From positions 1 to 64,000 of the forward strand of contig DATLUO010000140.1 of the NCBI GenBank assembly GCA_035533075.1: a DNA stretch of 64,000 bases. Reading direction: 5' to 3'. The translations under genes and the position numbers were made by a program. Under the pieces are notes generated by a model. It worked only from the letters and a program-made list of their open reading frames with translations. It was not told the DNA's origin and did not search any database. Of this stretch, positions 14,364 to 62,084 are shown one piece after another (position 1 is the first letter of the stretch; every line of letters starts with the position of its first letter). This DNA comes from Pirellulales bacterium. GTDB lineage: Bacteria > Planctomycetota > Planctomycetia > Pirellulales > JAICIG01.

Positions 14364-15271
14364 GATGTACTCCGGGCGTTCGACAGGAGATTTCGATTAT
14401 AGCTTTCGCAAAACGGTTCCGCATCCGTGGCGACCGCCTCGGTCTCGCATTTGCTTGCGGAAAACAACGGCCCTCAGCGTGCGCTGCGTGTTGCAACGTG
14501 TTTCCGCATGGCCAGTTGCAGGCACGCGCCAACGCATCACGAGTCTAGCGCCGAACCGGCTTGTGATGCTCCGTTCGCCTTCCACGGTCTTTGCAAATTT
14601 GCAAAGACCGAAAAACGTGCTGGATTTCGTTACTATCCCCTCACACGAGTGGCATCGATAGCCGTGCCGTGATTTAAGCACCGCGACTGGCCCGGCGGGA
14701 AGCACTGCGATGGTCGGCGGGCAAGGGCCTGCTGCCCGTGGGTGCAAATTTGCACCCGTGGGAAAAAGACGGCGATTTGCTTGTCTCGTACCTCATCAGA
14801 ACGGGCGCCGCTTCGGCTGCGGAAGCTCCCCTGTGGGCGGATGCCAGTCGCCGCGCCAACCCCTTGAGTTTCCGCGCAAACTGGCTTGGGAGGTGCTTTT
14901 TTGGCGGACGTCCGCTCGACGGCTTTTGCAAATTTGCAAAAGCCGCGAAACGCGAGGGATTTGGGCATTCCGTACTCCATCCGTGGGGAACCGTCGCCGG
15001 GGCTTCCCTGAAGCGGAACCGGAACCATCGAACCGTCGCCGTTGATTGCGGACCGCAGTCCAGGTGTTAAACTAAAAAGGGTGCGGTTTCTTGCCGTACT
15101 GCCACACACAATAGCGGACGGCCGAGGACGTGCGGCGCAACAGGGCGGCGATTATCCACGCGGAGCCCAACAGCGACGCGGCCCACACGACGAGCAAACC
15201 GATGGCCTGAAATCCGCGGTCGCCGAAGACGGCGACGAGTGTTGAATCATGCTGGATAAAGGCGGCGGCGG
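14364..15271. repeat. Intergenic region with three palindromes built on the core GCAAATTTGC
   Basis: No convincing gene was found in these ~900 bases. It holds three perfect palindromes centred on GCAAATTTGC: 14585-14610 (26 bases, arms CGGTCTTTGCAAA), 14740-14757 (18 bases, arms GGGTGCAAA) and 14920-14945 (26 bases, arms CGGCTTTTGCAAA). Each is followed by a loosely conserved tail of the form GAAAAA-n-GGATTT-n-TCTCGTA. The outer arm bases differ between copies but stay complementary. Two more copies lie at 61072-61099 and 61648-61674. The spacer also separates the divergent starts at 14363 (minus) and 15272 (plus), so promoters for both genes should be here, but none could be assigned with confidence. 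Confidence 0.75.
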
Positions 15272-15970
15272 ATGACGCTGGCGGTGAAGGTGGAGGGGCT
15301 GACGGTCAACCAAGTCGCCGAGAGGTTCGGAGTCAGCACGACGACCGTTCACAATGCCTGCGTGAAGGATTTCGCCGCTTACGAGGCGCTGCTTGAGCCG
15401 CGTGGCAAGAAGCGGTCGGAGCAACACCGGCGGATTGCGATGGCGGTGCGAAAGGAGGTTCTTACCGTGACGGCGGCGGCCGAGAAGTTTCATGTCGCGA
15501 CGAACCACGTAAGAATGGCCTGCGCCGAACATGGCGCCCAACCGCGCGTAGCGCAGCCCACATCCAATGTCAGGATGCTCCAAATCGTGGCGGACATTGC
15601 GCGAGGCAAGTCGAGAAAGCAGATCTGCGACGAGCGGTGCTTGAGCCGCGAACGCGTCCGTCAGATCAAGGACAAAGCGGAAGCCGCCGGAAGCATCAAG
15701 TCGCATTTCGCGGCAGCTCTCCGCCGCTGCCGCAAGGCCAACGGACTCACGCAAGCCGACGCGGCGGCGATCGCCGGGATCGGCCAGACACACTGGTCCG
15801 CTTACGAGTCGGGCTCATCGACGAACCCCAGTTTGGATCACATCATCGCGATGGCCGCCGCGCTCGGCGTCAAGGTCAGCGAATTGCTGGACAGCCCGCC
15901 GGCGCCTGATGCCACCGCGATGCTTCGCCACGAACGGGAAATCGACCCGAAACGGAATCAAAACGCCTAA
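15272..15970 (+). CDS. Multi-helix-turn-helix regulator with C-terminal XRE/Cro domain
   Basis: 232 residues from ATG 15272; an in-frame TAA 15 bases upstream rules out a longer protein. Four DNA-binding-like units are visible in order: LTVNQVAERFGVSTTTVHNA (~10-30), LTVTAAAEKFHVATNHVRMA (~63-84), a third GKSRKQICDERCLSRERVRQ (~112-133) and a full XRE domain (~148-205: RCRKANGLTQADAAAIAGIG ... GSSTNPSLDHIIAMAAALGV). The first two are related to each other and resemble homeodomain-like/MerR-type HTHs, and the third resembles a sigma-70 region 4 HTH. No toxin or phage gene is adjacent. Which DNA it binds cannot be read from the sequence; the palindromes on both sides (14585-14945, 16125-16154) are candidates. 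Confidence 0.75.
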   Translation: MTLAVKVEGLTVNQVAERFGVSTTTVHNACVKDFAAYEALLEPRGKKRSEQHRRIAMAVRKEVLTVTAAAEKFHVATNHVRMACAEHGAQPRVAQPTSNVRMLQIVADIARGKSRKQICDERCLSRERVRQIKDKAEAAGSIKSHFAAALRRCRKANGLTQADAAAIAGIGQTHWSAYESGSSTNPSLDHIIAMAAALGVKVSELLDSPPAPDATAMLRHEREIDPKRNQNA

Positions 15971-23228: not shown

Positions 23229-23457
23229 TATACTTCACGCGGCCGAGAATGAAACGTTTTGCCGCAAGGAAAAGCGCGGTGGCTGGGGCAGAGCTTGGCC
23301 AGATAGCGGCTGGTGCCTTCAACAGCGTGACGGCCAAGCGATGCCCCGGTGCGTCCAACCGGGGCATCGCCTGGCCGCCGAGATGAACGGAGTGCCAGCC
23401 TCCACCGGCCCAGGCTCTGCCCCACCCACCGCCGATGTCTCGGCCGCGTGAAGTATA
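23229..23457. mobile_element. MITE-like palindromic element, copy 1 (229 bp)
   Basis: The ends are perfect 20-base terminal inverted repeats beginning TATACTTCACGCGGCCGAGA. Inside, further inverted segments pair (GGCTGGGGCAGAGCTTGGCC with a matching part near the right end, and two CCCGGTGC-like arms around the centre), so nearly the whole element folds into one hairpin. It carries no coding sequence. A second copy is at 34548-34779 and a lone end at 55971-55987. It lies between two convergent genes. Confidence 0.8.
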
Positions 23458-26288: not shown

Positions 26289-26329
26289 CGGTGGGCCGGC
26301 GCTCGCAAGCTCGCTGGTCCCACCCTACC
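26289..26329. repeat. Palindromic repeat of the GGTGGGACCAGCG family
   Basis: Imperfect palindrome with arms GGTGGGCCGGCG and CGCTGGTCCCACC around a 10-base loop (CTCGCAAGCT). It sits between the sugar ABC permease and the acyl-CoA ligase gene. Other copies: 33240-33278, 33294-33329, 36088-36130, 58136-58175. Confidence 0.8.
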
Positions 26330-34361: not shown

Positions 34362-34916
34362 ACTCCTCACGTTCCTGAAAACCATCGCCGCGGCCGATCG
34401 CGCCACGAAATTACACCGCTACTTAGGATACTTTCGGCAGGTCGATGCCGCGGGCAGCGGCGAGCGCCGCGCCGCTCGGCAATTCAGCCGTAAACCGCCC
34501 CGCCTCCGATCTTTACCGGCTGCAACGCGGGTAGTCTAGGGCGTCTTTATACTTCACGCGGCCGAAAATGAGGGATTTTTCCGCGAGCAAAAGCGGTGGC
34601 TGGGGCAGAGCTTGGCCAGATAGCGGCTGGCGCCCATCAACGGCGTGGCGGCCAAGCGATGCCCCGGTTGGACGCACCGGGGCATCGTCTGGCCGCCGAG
34701 ATGAACGCAGTGCCAGCCTTCACGTGGCCAGACTCTGCCCCAGCCACCCCCAATGTCTCATTCTCGGCCGCGTGAAGTAGAACCACCGCGACTTTGCCGG
34801 CCTTGCCTGGGCAATCGCGAGCGTGCGGGTGGTGGAGGATGGCCTTCCTAGACTGTCCAGGCTCGTTTTGAGGGCCAGGAACCAGCGGCTTGCTGGAGCG
34901 ATTGGACATCGGAGTT
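34362..34916. other. Non-coding spacer holding MITE-like element copy 2
   Basis: No gene was recognised. Apart from the element at 34548-34779, the spacer holds no other feature I could identify. Confidence 0.6.
34548..34779. mobile_element. MITE-like palindromic element, copy 2 (232 bp)
   Basis: Left end TATACTTCACGCGGCCGAAA and right end TTCTCGGCCGCGTGAAGTA are inverted repeats with one or two changes. The internal arms (GGCTGGGGCAGAGCTTGGCC with CTCTGCCCCAGCC; GATGCCCCGGT with ACCGGGGCATC) pair, so the element is one long hairpin. It aligns along its length with 23229-23457, including ATGCCCCGG and GGCCGCCGAGATGAACG. No open frame. It would need an outside transposase. Confidence 0.8.
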
Positions 34917-36253: not shown

Positions 36254-37345
36254 ATGAATGATCGGCGGCGATTGATGACGCTTTCGGTATCGGTTTTGAC
36301 CATCGTGTCGTTGGGCGCGGTCGGCATCACCGCTTTATACCTTCTGCCGCTGGGCGATCGAGGCGTTGCCGCGCCGGTGGCAAAAAACCTCTGGCTGGCG
36401 CTGGGCAGCACCGCGGTTTTCGTCTTCGCCGGCGCCACGCTGCTGCTGCGAATCAGCCAGCCCTTGCTGCGGCGGTTGGAAGAAACCGAACGGCAGCTTC
36501 GGGCACTCGTGGTCACGCTCGAGGCCAAGGCCGGCGACCTGGCGCGGACCAACCAGGAACTCGACGACTTTACCTACGTCGCCTCGCACGACCTGAAAGA
36601 ACCGTTGCGCGGCATCAGCGCCTACTGCGATATTTTGCTGGATGAATATCGCGACAAGCTCGACGACAACGGGCGACGAATGATGACGACGCTCGTCGAT
36701 CTCTGCGGCCGGTTGAGCCACCTCATTGACGACCTGCTCGCCTTCTGCCGGGCAGGCCGAACGCCCGAAGCAACCGACCTCGATCTCGACGAAGTGCTCG
36801 ACGAAGTGTTGGTGACCCTCGGGCCGGCCATCGACGCGCGCGGCGGCCGCGTGCGGCGGCTGAATCGTTTGCCGGTGGTCCACGGCGATGCGACGCTCTT
36901 GGGCATGGTGCTGCAAAACCTGATTTCCAACGGGCTGAAGTTCAACGACAGCGCTTCTCCGACCGTGGAAGTCGAGGTGCTGGATGGCCAGCGACCGACC
37001 ATCGTGGTGCGCGACAACGGCATCGGCATCGAACCCCGCCATCACGAGGCGGTGTTCGCGATGTTCCGGCGACTCCACGCGCGAAACAAGTATGAAGGGA
37101 CGGGCGCGGGACTGTCGATTGCCCGGAAGGTTGTCGAAAACCACGGTGGCCGGATGTGGCTGGAGTCGCAGCCGGGAGAAGGATCGGCGTTCTTCTTTAC
37201 GCTGCCCGTGGCGGTAGGCGCAGAACAGAAAGCGGAAAAGGGGAATTGCAAATTGCAAATTGCAAATTGCGAATTGGCCATTTCGAGCGCTCAGAATCGA
37301 GAAGCGGAACTCGCTGCCGCTTACGTCTCAACGCCTATCGCCTAA
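36254..37345 (+). CDS. Membrane sensor histidine kinase
   Basis: 363 residues from ATG 36254. Two membrane helices (~8-33 and ~45-66) enclose a very short extracytoplasmic loop, so it probably senses an internal or membrane signal. A coiled linker is followed by HisKA with phospho-accepting H112 in ASHDLKEPLRG, then HATPase_c (N box NLISNGLKFND, G1 DNGIGIEP, G2 GTGAGLSIARKVVENHGG). The catalytic core ends near residue 320. The last ~40 residues (CKLQIANCELAISS) come from the AATTGCA short repeat and are not part of the kinase fold. The next gene begins 10 bases downstream and encodes the likely partner. Confidence 0.9.
   Translation: MNDRRRLMTLSVSVLTIVSLGAVGITALYLLPLGDRGVAAPVAKNLWLALGSTAVFVFAGATLLLRISQPLLRRLEETERQLRALVVTLEAKAGDLARTNQELDDFTYVASHDLKEPLRGISAYCDILLDEYRDKLDDNGRRMMTTLVDLCGRLSHLIDDLLAFCRAGRTPEATDLDLDEVLDEVLVTLGPAIDARGGRVRRLNRLPVVHGDATLLGMVLQNLISNGLKFNDSASPTVEVEVLDGQRPTIVVRDNGIGIEPRHHEAVFAMFRRLHARNKYEGTGAGLSIARKVVENHGGRMWLESQPGEGSAFFFTLPVAVGAEQKAEKGNCKLQIANCELAISSAQNREAELAAAYVSTPIA
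37244..37275. repeat. Period-7 repeat inside the kinase C-terminus
   Basis: AATTGCAAATTGCAAATTGC with a period of 7 bases continues the reading frame of the kinase and encodes NCKLQIANCE. The repeat is also at 41222-41262 and 18512-18531. Confidence 0.8.
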
Positions 37346-41202: not shown

Positions 41203-41221
41203 GGATATACCAATTTGGGGG

Positions 41222-41262
41222 AAATTGCAAATTGCAAATTGCAAATTGCAAATTTGCAATTG
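41222..41262. repeat. Period-7 repeat AAATTGC
   Basis: Five to six units of AAATTGC in tandem (AAATTGCAAATTGCAAATTG and onward), ending in a small palindrome GCAAATTTGCAATTG. It lies in the 5' spacer of the FG-GAP gene and keeps a reading frame open. Confidence 0.85.
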
Positions 41263-41278
41263 CCTGACGCCTTAAATT

Positions 41279-60785: not shown

Positions 60786-60968
60786 GGTGAAGGGTTCTCC
60801 GGGTTCGGGGGGGTTCAGGGTTCAGGGTTCAGGGTTCAGGGGCGCGTTTGCTTGTGAAAAATAAAAAGCAAGCGCGCCGCCTGGGCCGTTTAAGCTGGTA
60901 GGGGCCAGCGGTTTGCGGCGACACGCGAAAACATCGACGCCGACTTGTACAAGCGCGGAACCATCTGG

Positions 60969-61067
60969 CGGCTCTGTAGGGACCGGCCTCCGTGGCGTTG
61001 CGAGGCCGTGCGGGTTGGTGCCGACCCCGCTGCGCGGAACGCCACACCGGGCGTTCCCTACAGAGCG
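60969..61067. repeat. Second copy of the palindrome found inside the PVC gene
   Basis: Left arm near 60970-61001 (GCTCTGTAGGGACCGGCCTC and on) and right arm near 61033-61067 (CGGAACGCCACACCGGGCGT, then TCCCTACAGAGC). The arms match those at 11696-11781 at most positions, with several changes. Confidence 0.8.
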
Positions 61068-61311
61068 GCTGCCCGTCAGCGCAAATTTGGGCTGATGGGA
61101 AAAACCCGAGGGATTTCATCATCTCGTAGTTCCGAAGAGGGGATGAGCGATCAAGGGATGAGGGACGAGGGAAATGAAGTCGCGAGTTCGGCTTTGTGGG
61201 GCATTCCGCGGCCGTCCGGTTCTGCCTACTTGCACCCTACTCGCCGACTGGCTTGGGCACGTATCGTAGGCATCACGCTCCACCGTGATGGAACCTTTCG
61301 GCCGCGGATCC

Positions 61312-61407
61312 TGACAGAAAGATTACCTGGCAGAAAAATGGGGAACGCGGCCGCCGAGCGAGGTGCCATTGGATGGCTCATTTTTCTGTCAGGTAACCTT
61401 TCTGTCA
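61312..61407. repeat. Inverted repeat, 29-base arms, 38-base loop
   Basis: Left arm 61312-61340 (TGACAGAAAGATTACCTGGC, then AGAAAAATG) and right arm 61379-61407 are complementary at all but two positions. The loop has no coding sequence. It could be a terminator-like hairpin or the ends of a collapsed mobile element. Confidence 0.75.
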
Positions 61408-62084
61408 TCCGTCCTTTGAGCGGGGCATGGGTTCATCCCTGATCGCTCCTCTCTCATCATGTATGGAAACTGGCTTGCACCGCTCTGGCGACTGCCCCGT
61501 TCCCTGATCGCTCATCCCTCATCTCTCATCTTTATCCACAATTGCCTAATATATGCGCATAACATCGGCCCCATGCGTATAGATTAGGCAGTCCGCGCGG
61601 ATTGCCCTCCAATTAGGTATGAGACGATAAAAAACGCCGTGTTTGACCGGCTATTGCAAATTTGCAAAAGCCGTGGGCCGAGCTGCCGCGCTCGACCGCC
61701 GCGCGGCCCCGCTGCTCAATTCTTAGGCACGCATCCAGGGCTGCCACGAAGCCGCTAGGTTCGCCGGTCTGTCCCGGCGAGCCGCCATCAACCCCCTCCT
61801 GGCCAACTGGCTTGATCGGTGCTTTCCGGCGGCCACGTGGCAGGAACGAAAAGGGGAGCCACGGATGACACGGATGGGCACGGATCAAGACTCGGCCAGC
61901 ATCCTATCACGCCGCTGGCTTGGCTTGTTCCACTCGGGCCGCGCCGCGAAGACCCAAAACCCAAAACCCAAAACCCAAAACACAAAACCGCCGCCTTGTT
62001 CTTTCTCCGCCCCGCGTGCCTTATACTCTCGGCGTAGCTCTGCCGCCCCCAATCCCCAACCCCCAATCCCCAACCCCTTCCCCC

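Follow-up and report, generated by a model that had tools for sequence, protein, structure and literature searches.

The parS-359 site of B. subtilis lies inside parB (spo0J) (PMC4442127), and parS1 of plasmid SCP1 lies within parB1 (PMC13245405). In T. thermophilus, parSm is found inside parBm and is a site for the gene's own product, with binding in vitro and foci reported (PMC4409726). The specificity of ParB and Noc depends on a few helix-turn-helix (HTH) residues that read a symmetric 16-bp site (Jalal et al., 2020; PMC7383237). The locus described here resembles the first three cases, with a ParB-family gene that carries a palindromic site for its own product, whose binding is here only predicted.

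The starting point is a window, i.e. the whole 64,000-nt stretch of DNA analysed, from the 8.5-Mb draft genome G000. An initial annotation had described five palindromes there, and all five are present, at the reported positions or within a few bases of them. It is highly probable that a ParB-like protein has this palindrome as its two-fold symmetric site, embedded in the linker of its own gene, and that the dispersed copies are relics of that gene.

A palindrome in the linker of ParB-like genes

Genome G000 carries the intact ParB-like genes L048 (328 aa) and L049 (381 aa), which are 52-55% identical. In both, the palindrome is in frame and encodes T-x-x-A-N-L-H/Q-x-P. The intact genes L048, L049 and L066 (the ParB-like gene of the related genome G001, with other arms) and the shorter L051 each hold a perfect 26-bp palindrome in frame, and the arm pair differs in all four. 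The core of L051 is GTAAATTTAC, a symmetric double change from GCAAATTTGC, and its helix reads SEKSV in place of SxRSV. The palindrome falls in the linker that joins the N-terminal domain of ParB to the HTH, and the residues it encodes are predicted to be disordered (pLDDT <50 at 207-218 in the structure model of L049). The ParB fold is recognised through a Foldseek match to Spo0J (1vz0, E=1.7e-5) and through profile matches to Noc (2.6e-6), Spo0J (5e-6) and ParB-like PHROG families; with Pfam alone, the embedding protein stays below the cut-off. The arginine motif predicted to bind a nucleotide (CTP), DGRNR or DGRHR, is near-invariant in alignments A4 and A7. No parA is found beside the Sinorhizobium pMl3 gene, and none is recognised in the ORF lists of L048 and L049. 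On pMl3, a phage-like plasmid, the ParB-like part and its embedded site are fused to an MT-A70 methyltransferase (L079/L397). In the more distant planctomycete ParB-like genes L068 (genome G020) and L071 (genome G004), the linker holds inverted repeats with a 2-base spacer, GGAGACGA-AA-TCGTCTCC and GGAAAAATTTCC.

Viral contigs scanned with the planctomycete alignment gave no match, and a rhizobial query reached the phage ParB-like family. In the ParB-like genes of rhizobial phages, the corresponding position is occupied by GGGTCxGCAAATTTGCxGACCC, and compensatory changes give variants such as GCACATGTGC and GACAAATTTGTC. Phage genes further removed carry palindromes of quite another sequence there. 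The cores of these phage linkers are GCAAATTTGC, CCAATTGG, TCAATTGA, GGAAATTTCC or GTGAATTCAC. In a discovery set of 63 non-redundant phage and planctomycete genes, the mean best palindrome score of the linker is 8.75, against 4.60 for synonymous codon shuffles and 5.1/5.2 outside the linker of the same genes. Of 69 further genes, retrieved afterwards and used as a hold-out set, 39 reach a linker score of at least 8, versus 2 and 3 elsewhere in the gene. By this scoring, a sizeable minority of the phage genes has no clear linker palindrome, and it is absent from the Pseudomonas plasmid homologues.

The core GCAAATTTGC is translated in all three frames, as ANL, QIC or RKFA in different proteins, which indicates that the DNA is kept and not the peptide. 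It occurs exactly once in 22 of 27 phage contigs and, where embedded, is the only copy on the contig; three of the other contigs lack it and have sites with changed cores, and two have three copies. Since the embedded copy is usually the sole one in phages, the gene and its site travel as a unit.

Gene remnants in the window and the genome

The exact core GCAAATTTGC is found 68 times in G000, versus once for a reversed control. The initial annotation had held that both arms change together with pairing kept, and had proposed a covariance model and a genome search. Built from 61 copies, a 66-nt model spanning hairpin and tail was run against 197 genomes of the order. It recovers about 75 full-length copies from G000 and about 20 from G001, the one relative of the same family among them, and none from the remaining 195. 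An order-wide excess of GCAAATTTGC was rejected as the same element, the copies sampled in G018 and G020 having neither arms nor tail. The 61-copy alignment confirms the conserved complementarity: 91.5% of the arm cells are paired (71.7% when shuffled), 127 cells show double changes (44 when shuffled), and the covariation score is 0.541, against 0.200 when shuffled and at most 0.19 with slid partners. As the copies share related lineages, these counts are not of independent events.

Three copies do lie in the spacer at 14364-15271, as reported. The first is a perfect 26-bp palindrome, CGGTCTTTGCAAATTTGCAAAGACCG, at 14585..14610 on the forward strand (model R1 match at 14582-14646, 54.4 bits), and its tail at 14611..14647 on the reverse strand is a degenerate ParB-like coding relic, as judged by tblastn on sister copies. 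The second, GGGTGCAAATTTGCACCC, is a perfect 18-bp palindrome at 14740..14757 on the forward strand (R1 match at 14733-14797, 56.0 bits), and the antisense relic in its tail (14758..14797, reverse strand, within the R1 match) contains TCTCGTACC. The third, CGGCTTTTGCAAATTTGCAAAAGCCG, is again a perfect 26-bp palindrome, at 14920..14945 on the forward strand (R1 match at 14917-14981, 69.4 bits), with an antisense relic at 14946..14981 on the reverse strand as the tail in the same match. The fourth site (61072..61099, forward strand; R1 match at 61070-61135, 59.4 bits) is decayed. Its core reads GCAAATTTGG and is therefore broken in this copy. This site is the first end of a convergent relic pair of roughly 600 bp. 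The fifth site and its tail occupy 61611..61676 on the reverse strand (model R1, with a match of the tail-only model R2 at 61575-61645). The palindrome itself, at 61648-61673, has a single mismatch (A.A), and the region retains, in gene sense and with a broken frame, parts of the ANL-coding stretch. Next to it, at 61677..61735 on the forward strand, is a relic of the HTH-coding part, CTGCTCAATTCTTAGGCACG, which has a stop codon and is homologous to LLNVSxRS (compare the L031 and L049 genes). Searching the window for the core with at most one mismatch gives 10 matches versus 3.1 expected. A sixth exact GCAAATTTGC, at 41248, was discarded as a family member: it arises from one of two (TTGCAAA)n simple repeats, at 37240-37282 and 41219-41275.

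The tail that the initial annotation saw downstream of the palindromes is real, but it is part of a longer common sequence. It is the antisense of ..EVRDDKKHRETT.., which is ParB-like coding sequence, and on the opposite side of the palindrome are degenerate remains of the HTH-coding stretch. With tblastn, ParB-like remains with in-frame stops are found beside the palindromes, for example in L151 (7.7e-10), L159, L046 and L016, and the boundaries of the copies follow the homology with the ParB-like gene. A tail-only model, blind to the palindrome, gives 49 matches, 48 of them beside a known palindrome copy and the last interrupted by a contig end. The palindrome copies are fragments of the ParB-like gene, many of them with stop codons. 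Many have identical stops, which implies that the fragment multiplied after its coding ability was lost. In the planctomycete family, the gene would have decayed while its middle part, with the site, multiplied into about 75 copies that do not code for protein, the array at 14585-14945 among them. The copies in the window would then be stand-alone sites left by decayed copies of the gene.

The same dispersal can be read in the opposite direction, with a REP, MITE or other palindromic mobile repeat inserting into a ParB-like gene and then spreading, the copies in genes being insertions. The number of dispersed copies, the convergent pairing of some of them, at a distance of about 580 bp, in several related composites, and the multiplication of already stopped, non-coding copies would all suit such an element. 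This is nevertheless unlikely. The dispersed copies are flanked by ParB-like coding sequence, which makes the gene the source, and the palindrome-coded stretch is positionally homologous across phages, where it takes many unrelated sequences and matches the recognition helix of its own protein.

Several other features of the window deserve mention. A composite repeat of about 0.9-1.2 kb, at 60830-61760 and also in L016, L017, L026, L032 and L043, contains CTTGTGAAAAATAAAAA..CAAGCGCGCC, a GGAACGCCACGGAGGGCGTTCCCTACAGA hairpin block and two facing ParB-like relics about 580 bp apart. At 61530-61610, the relic tail has a second inverted repeat, TGCCTAAT..ATTAGGCA, which becomes TGCTCAAA..TTTGAGCA in other copies, a change that also looks compensatory. 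This pair suggested an integron attC, an idea that was dropped, as no cassette structure is seen. The motif CTGGCTTGG (14881, 61248 and 61915) accompanies many dispersed sites at distances of up to about 150 bp and can face either way. Directly beside the array begins a gene for a 232-aa protein (15272-15970) with several HTH segments and weak similarity to KorA/TrfB; a tie between the two is unsupported, with no homologue near other copies. A repeat of about 200 bp with internal inverted repeats is present twice (23229-23441 and 34548-34759; 83-98% identical in pieces), and GGTGGGCCGGCGCTCGCAAGCTCGCTGGTCC recurs at 26289, 33294 and 36091.

The recognition helix and its predicted half-site

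In the HTH recognition helix, L-N-V-S-x-X1-S-V-y-X2-A, two residues vary together with the embedded palindrome (helix positions are numbered from X1). When X2 is Arg, base 3 is C; with other residues it is A, rarely G. The tables for X2=Arg and C at -3 are 9/0/0/47 in the discovery set (p=1.3e-10) and 14/1/0/28 in the hold-out set (p=1.9e-10). For X1=Arg and GC at -5,-4 they are 44/0/1/11 (p=8e-11) and 26/0/3/14 (p=9e-9), so that the pattern of both residues is replicated in the hold-out genes. On a tree built with the linker and HTH columns left out, 8 residue changes and 8 base changes coincide; on the well-supported branches only, the independent pairs are few, and they agree in 3/3 and about 4/4 cases. 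When 64 protein columns are scanned without preselection, bases 3, 4, 5, 6 and 7 associate most strongly with helix positions +4, 0, 0, +3 and -1. Arg at 0 goes with GC in 93/93 cases, Arg at +4 with C in 26/26, Arg at +3 with G in 11/11, Gln at +3 with C in 10/10 and Arg at -1 with G in 16/18, and Ala or Phe at +3 goes mostly with T. These residue-base pairs make chemical sense. Through the Spo0J alignment, positions -1, 0, +3 and +4 align to R173, S174, A177 and N178 of Caulobacter ParB, where R173 and N178 contact parS (PMC7383237). It counts against this reading that in L205/L294 bases +-2 are changed and the helix is unchanged.

At least two intact G000 proteins have Arg as X1 and Thr as X2, and these are predicted to read exactly the GCAAATTTGC core, which is kept by 57 of 68 dispersed copies. 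In several copies of the window base 7 is T, and no intact G000 protein is predicted as their best reader.

From the location of the palindrome, its excess over synonymous shuffles, its covariation with the helix and the relic ancestry of its copies, we infer that the ParB-like protein binds the embedded parS-like or operator-like site. Each protein would bind, as a dimer, the duplex inside its own gene, with one HTH per half-site and AATT at the centre of the site. Helix position +4 would read base 3, position 0 bases 4-5, position +3 base 6 and position -1 base 7. Because the same helix reads each half, both arms would have to follow any shift in specificity, and the result is the compensatory change seen in the window.

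The initial annotation had taken this compensatory change as the mark of a selected hairpin, and had suggested a regulatory or structural RNA array or a REP-like element. Arm complementarity is indeed conserved. But the same palindrome stands in intact genes and its bases 3-7 each track one residue of the recognition helix, as expected of duplex DNA that a dimeric protein reads. The rival hairpin reading has a hairpin or cruciform selected in mRNA, antisense RNA or single-stranded DNA, the link to the protein being incidental. It draws on a complementarity that reaches +-12 with variable sequence, on perfect palindromes of 26-30 bp, longer than the usual 16-bp parS, and on at least 29 versions of the arms among the planctomycete copies. 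It is quite improbable, given the tracking of the helix and the form of the centre, which is even and loop-less in nearly all cases and whose bases change symmetrically (CAAATTTG to CACATGTG, GCAAATTTGC to GTAAATTTAC), as a hairpin loop does not require. The G.T wobbles in G000 (19 vs 14) have no clear strand bias and Rfam has no match in the window, and on these grounds, with the loop-less centre, the reading as an RNA array or REP element was rejected. An apparent excess of antisense wobbles in the rhizobial phages (A.C, at base 6) was set aside, since it is tied to Thr/Ile at helix +3.

Bases 8-12 are still symmetric (66-95% paired vs 28-46% shuffled), the symmetry stopping near base 13. 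No clear protein partner for them emerges from the 64-column scan, so the helix code covers only part of the palindrome; the rest could be due to a further DNA contact, to cruciforms or to symmetry arising by mutation. As an explanation of the whole palindrome, symmetrisation by mutation (template switching at quasi-palindromes) under no selection is very improbable: it would explain these symmetric but unconserved bases and the perfect arms of some relics, but it fails on the matching of bases 3-7 to the helix, on the fixed place in the gene and on the reuse of one core in three frames.

Meaning and relation to known systems

The best reading is thus an embedded cognate site, parS-like or operator-like, whose copies outlive and outnumber the gene in G000. 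Binding may serve partition, the loading of a ParB sliding clamp, or autoregulation. It is also fairly likely that a whole class of phage ParB-like genes is self-addressed, and that in the planctomycete family dozens of sites have become independent of the gene, maybe organising or regulating the host chromosome. With each such gene encoding a protein and holding, in the stretch for the disordered linker, the exact duplex that the protein would recognise, gene and site could move to new specificities jointly, within a single reading frame. A phage-type gene would in this way have a route for seeding a host chromosome with putative binding sites that survive it, and a DNA site would determine the amino acids of a coding sequence, whichever of the three frames it is read in. 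To infer a recognition code, one normally has to collect the proteins and their sites separately. Here each gene provides the two together, which makes natural protein-site pairs available in large numbers from no more than the sequence. The code predicts that changing X2 to Arg should shift AAATTT to CAATTG, and that changing X1 from Arg to Lys or Met should shift GC to GT or AC.

REP/BIME elements and the palindromic elements of Rickettsia are dispersed palindromes, some of them in coding sequence, as is the case here. Unlike them, the present element has as its source the gene that encodes its likely binder, and in its dispersed form it is found in one bacterial family only. In the open-licence literature, no paper was found on a systematic linker site in phage ParB-like genes, or on a code derived from it; in-gene parS sites are known singly, and the systematic linker site, the readable code and the dispersal of relics appear to be new. 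The present code agrees with the ParB/Noc code (PMC7383237) in that positions -1 and +4 correspond by alignment to R173 and N178, which make contacts there. In contrast to that code, the present one is read from the natural covariation of genes and their embedded sites, and it involves positions -1, 0, +3 and +4, bases 3-7 and an AATT centre. Finally, whereas parS-359, parSm and SCP1 parS1 are single cases, the site described here recurs at one fixed linker position throughout a large phage and planctomycete family. It is 22-30 bp long, and its cores do not match the canonical parS consensus TGTTTCACGTGAAACA but vary from gene to gene with the recognition helix.
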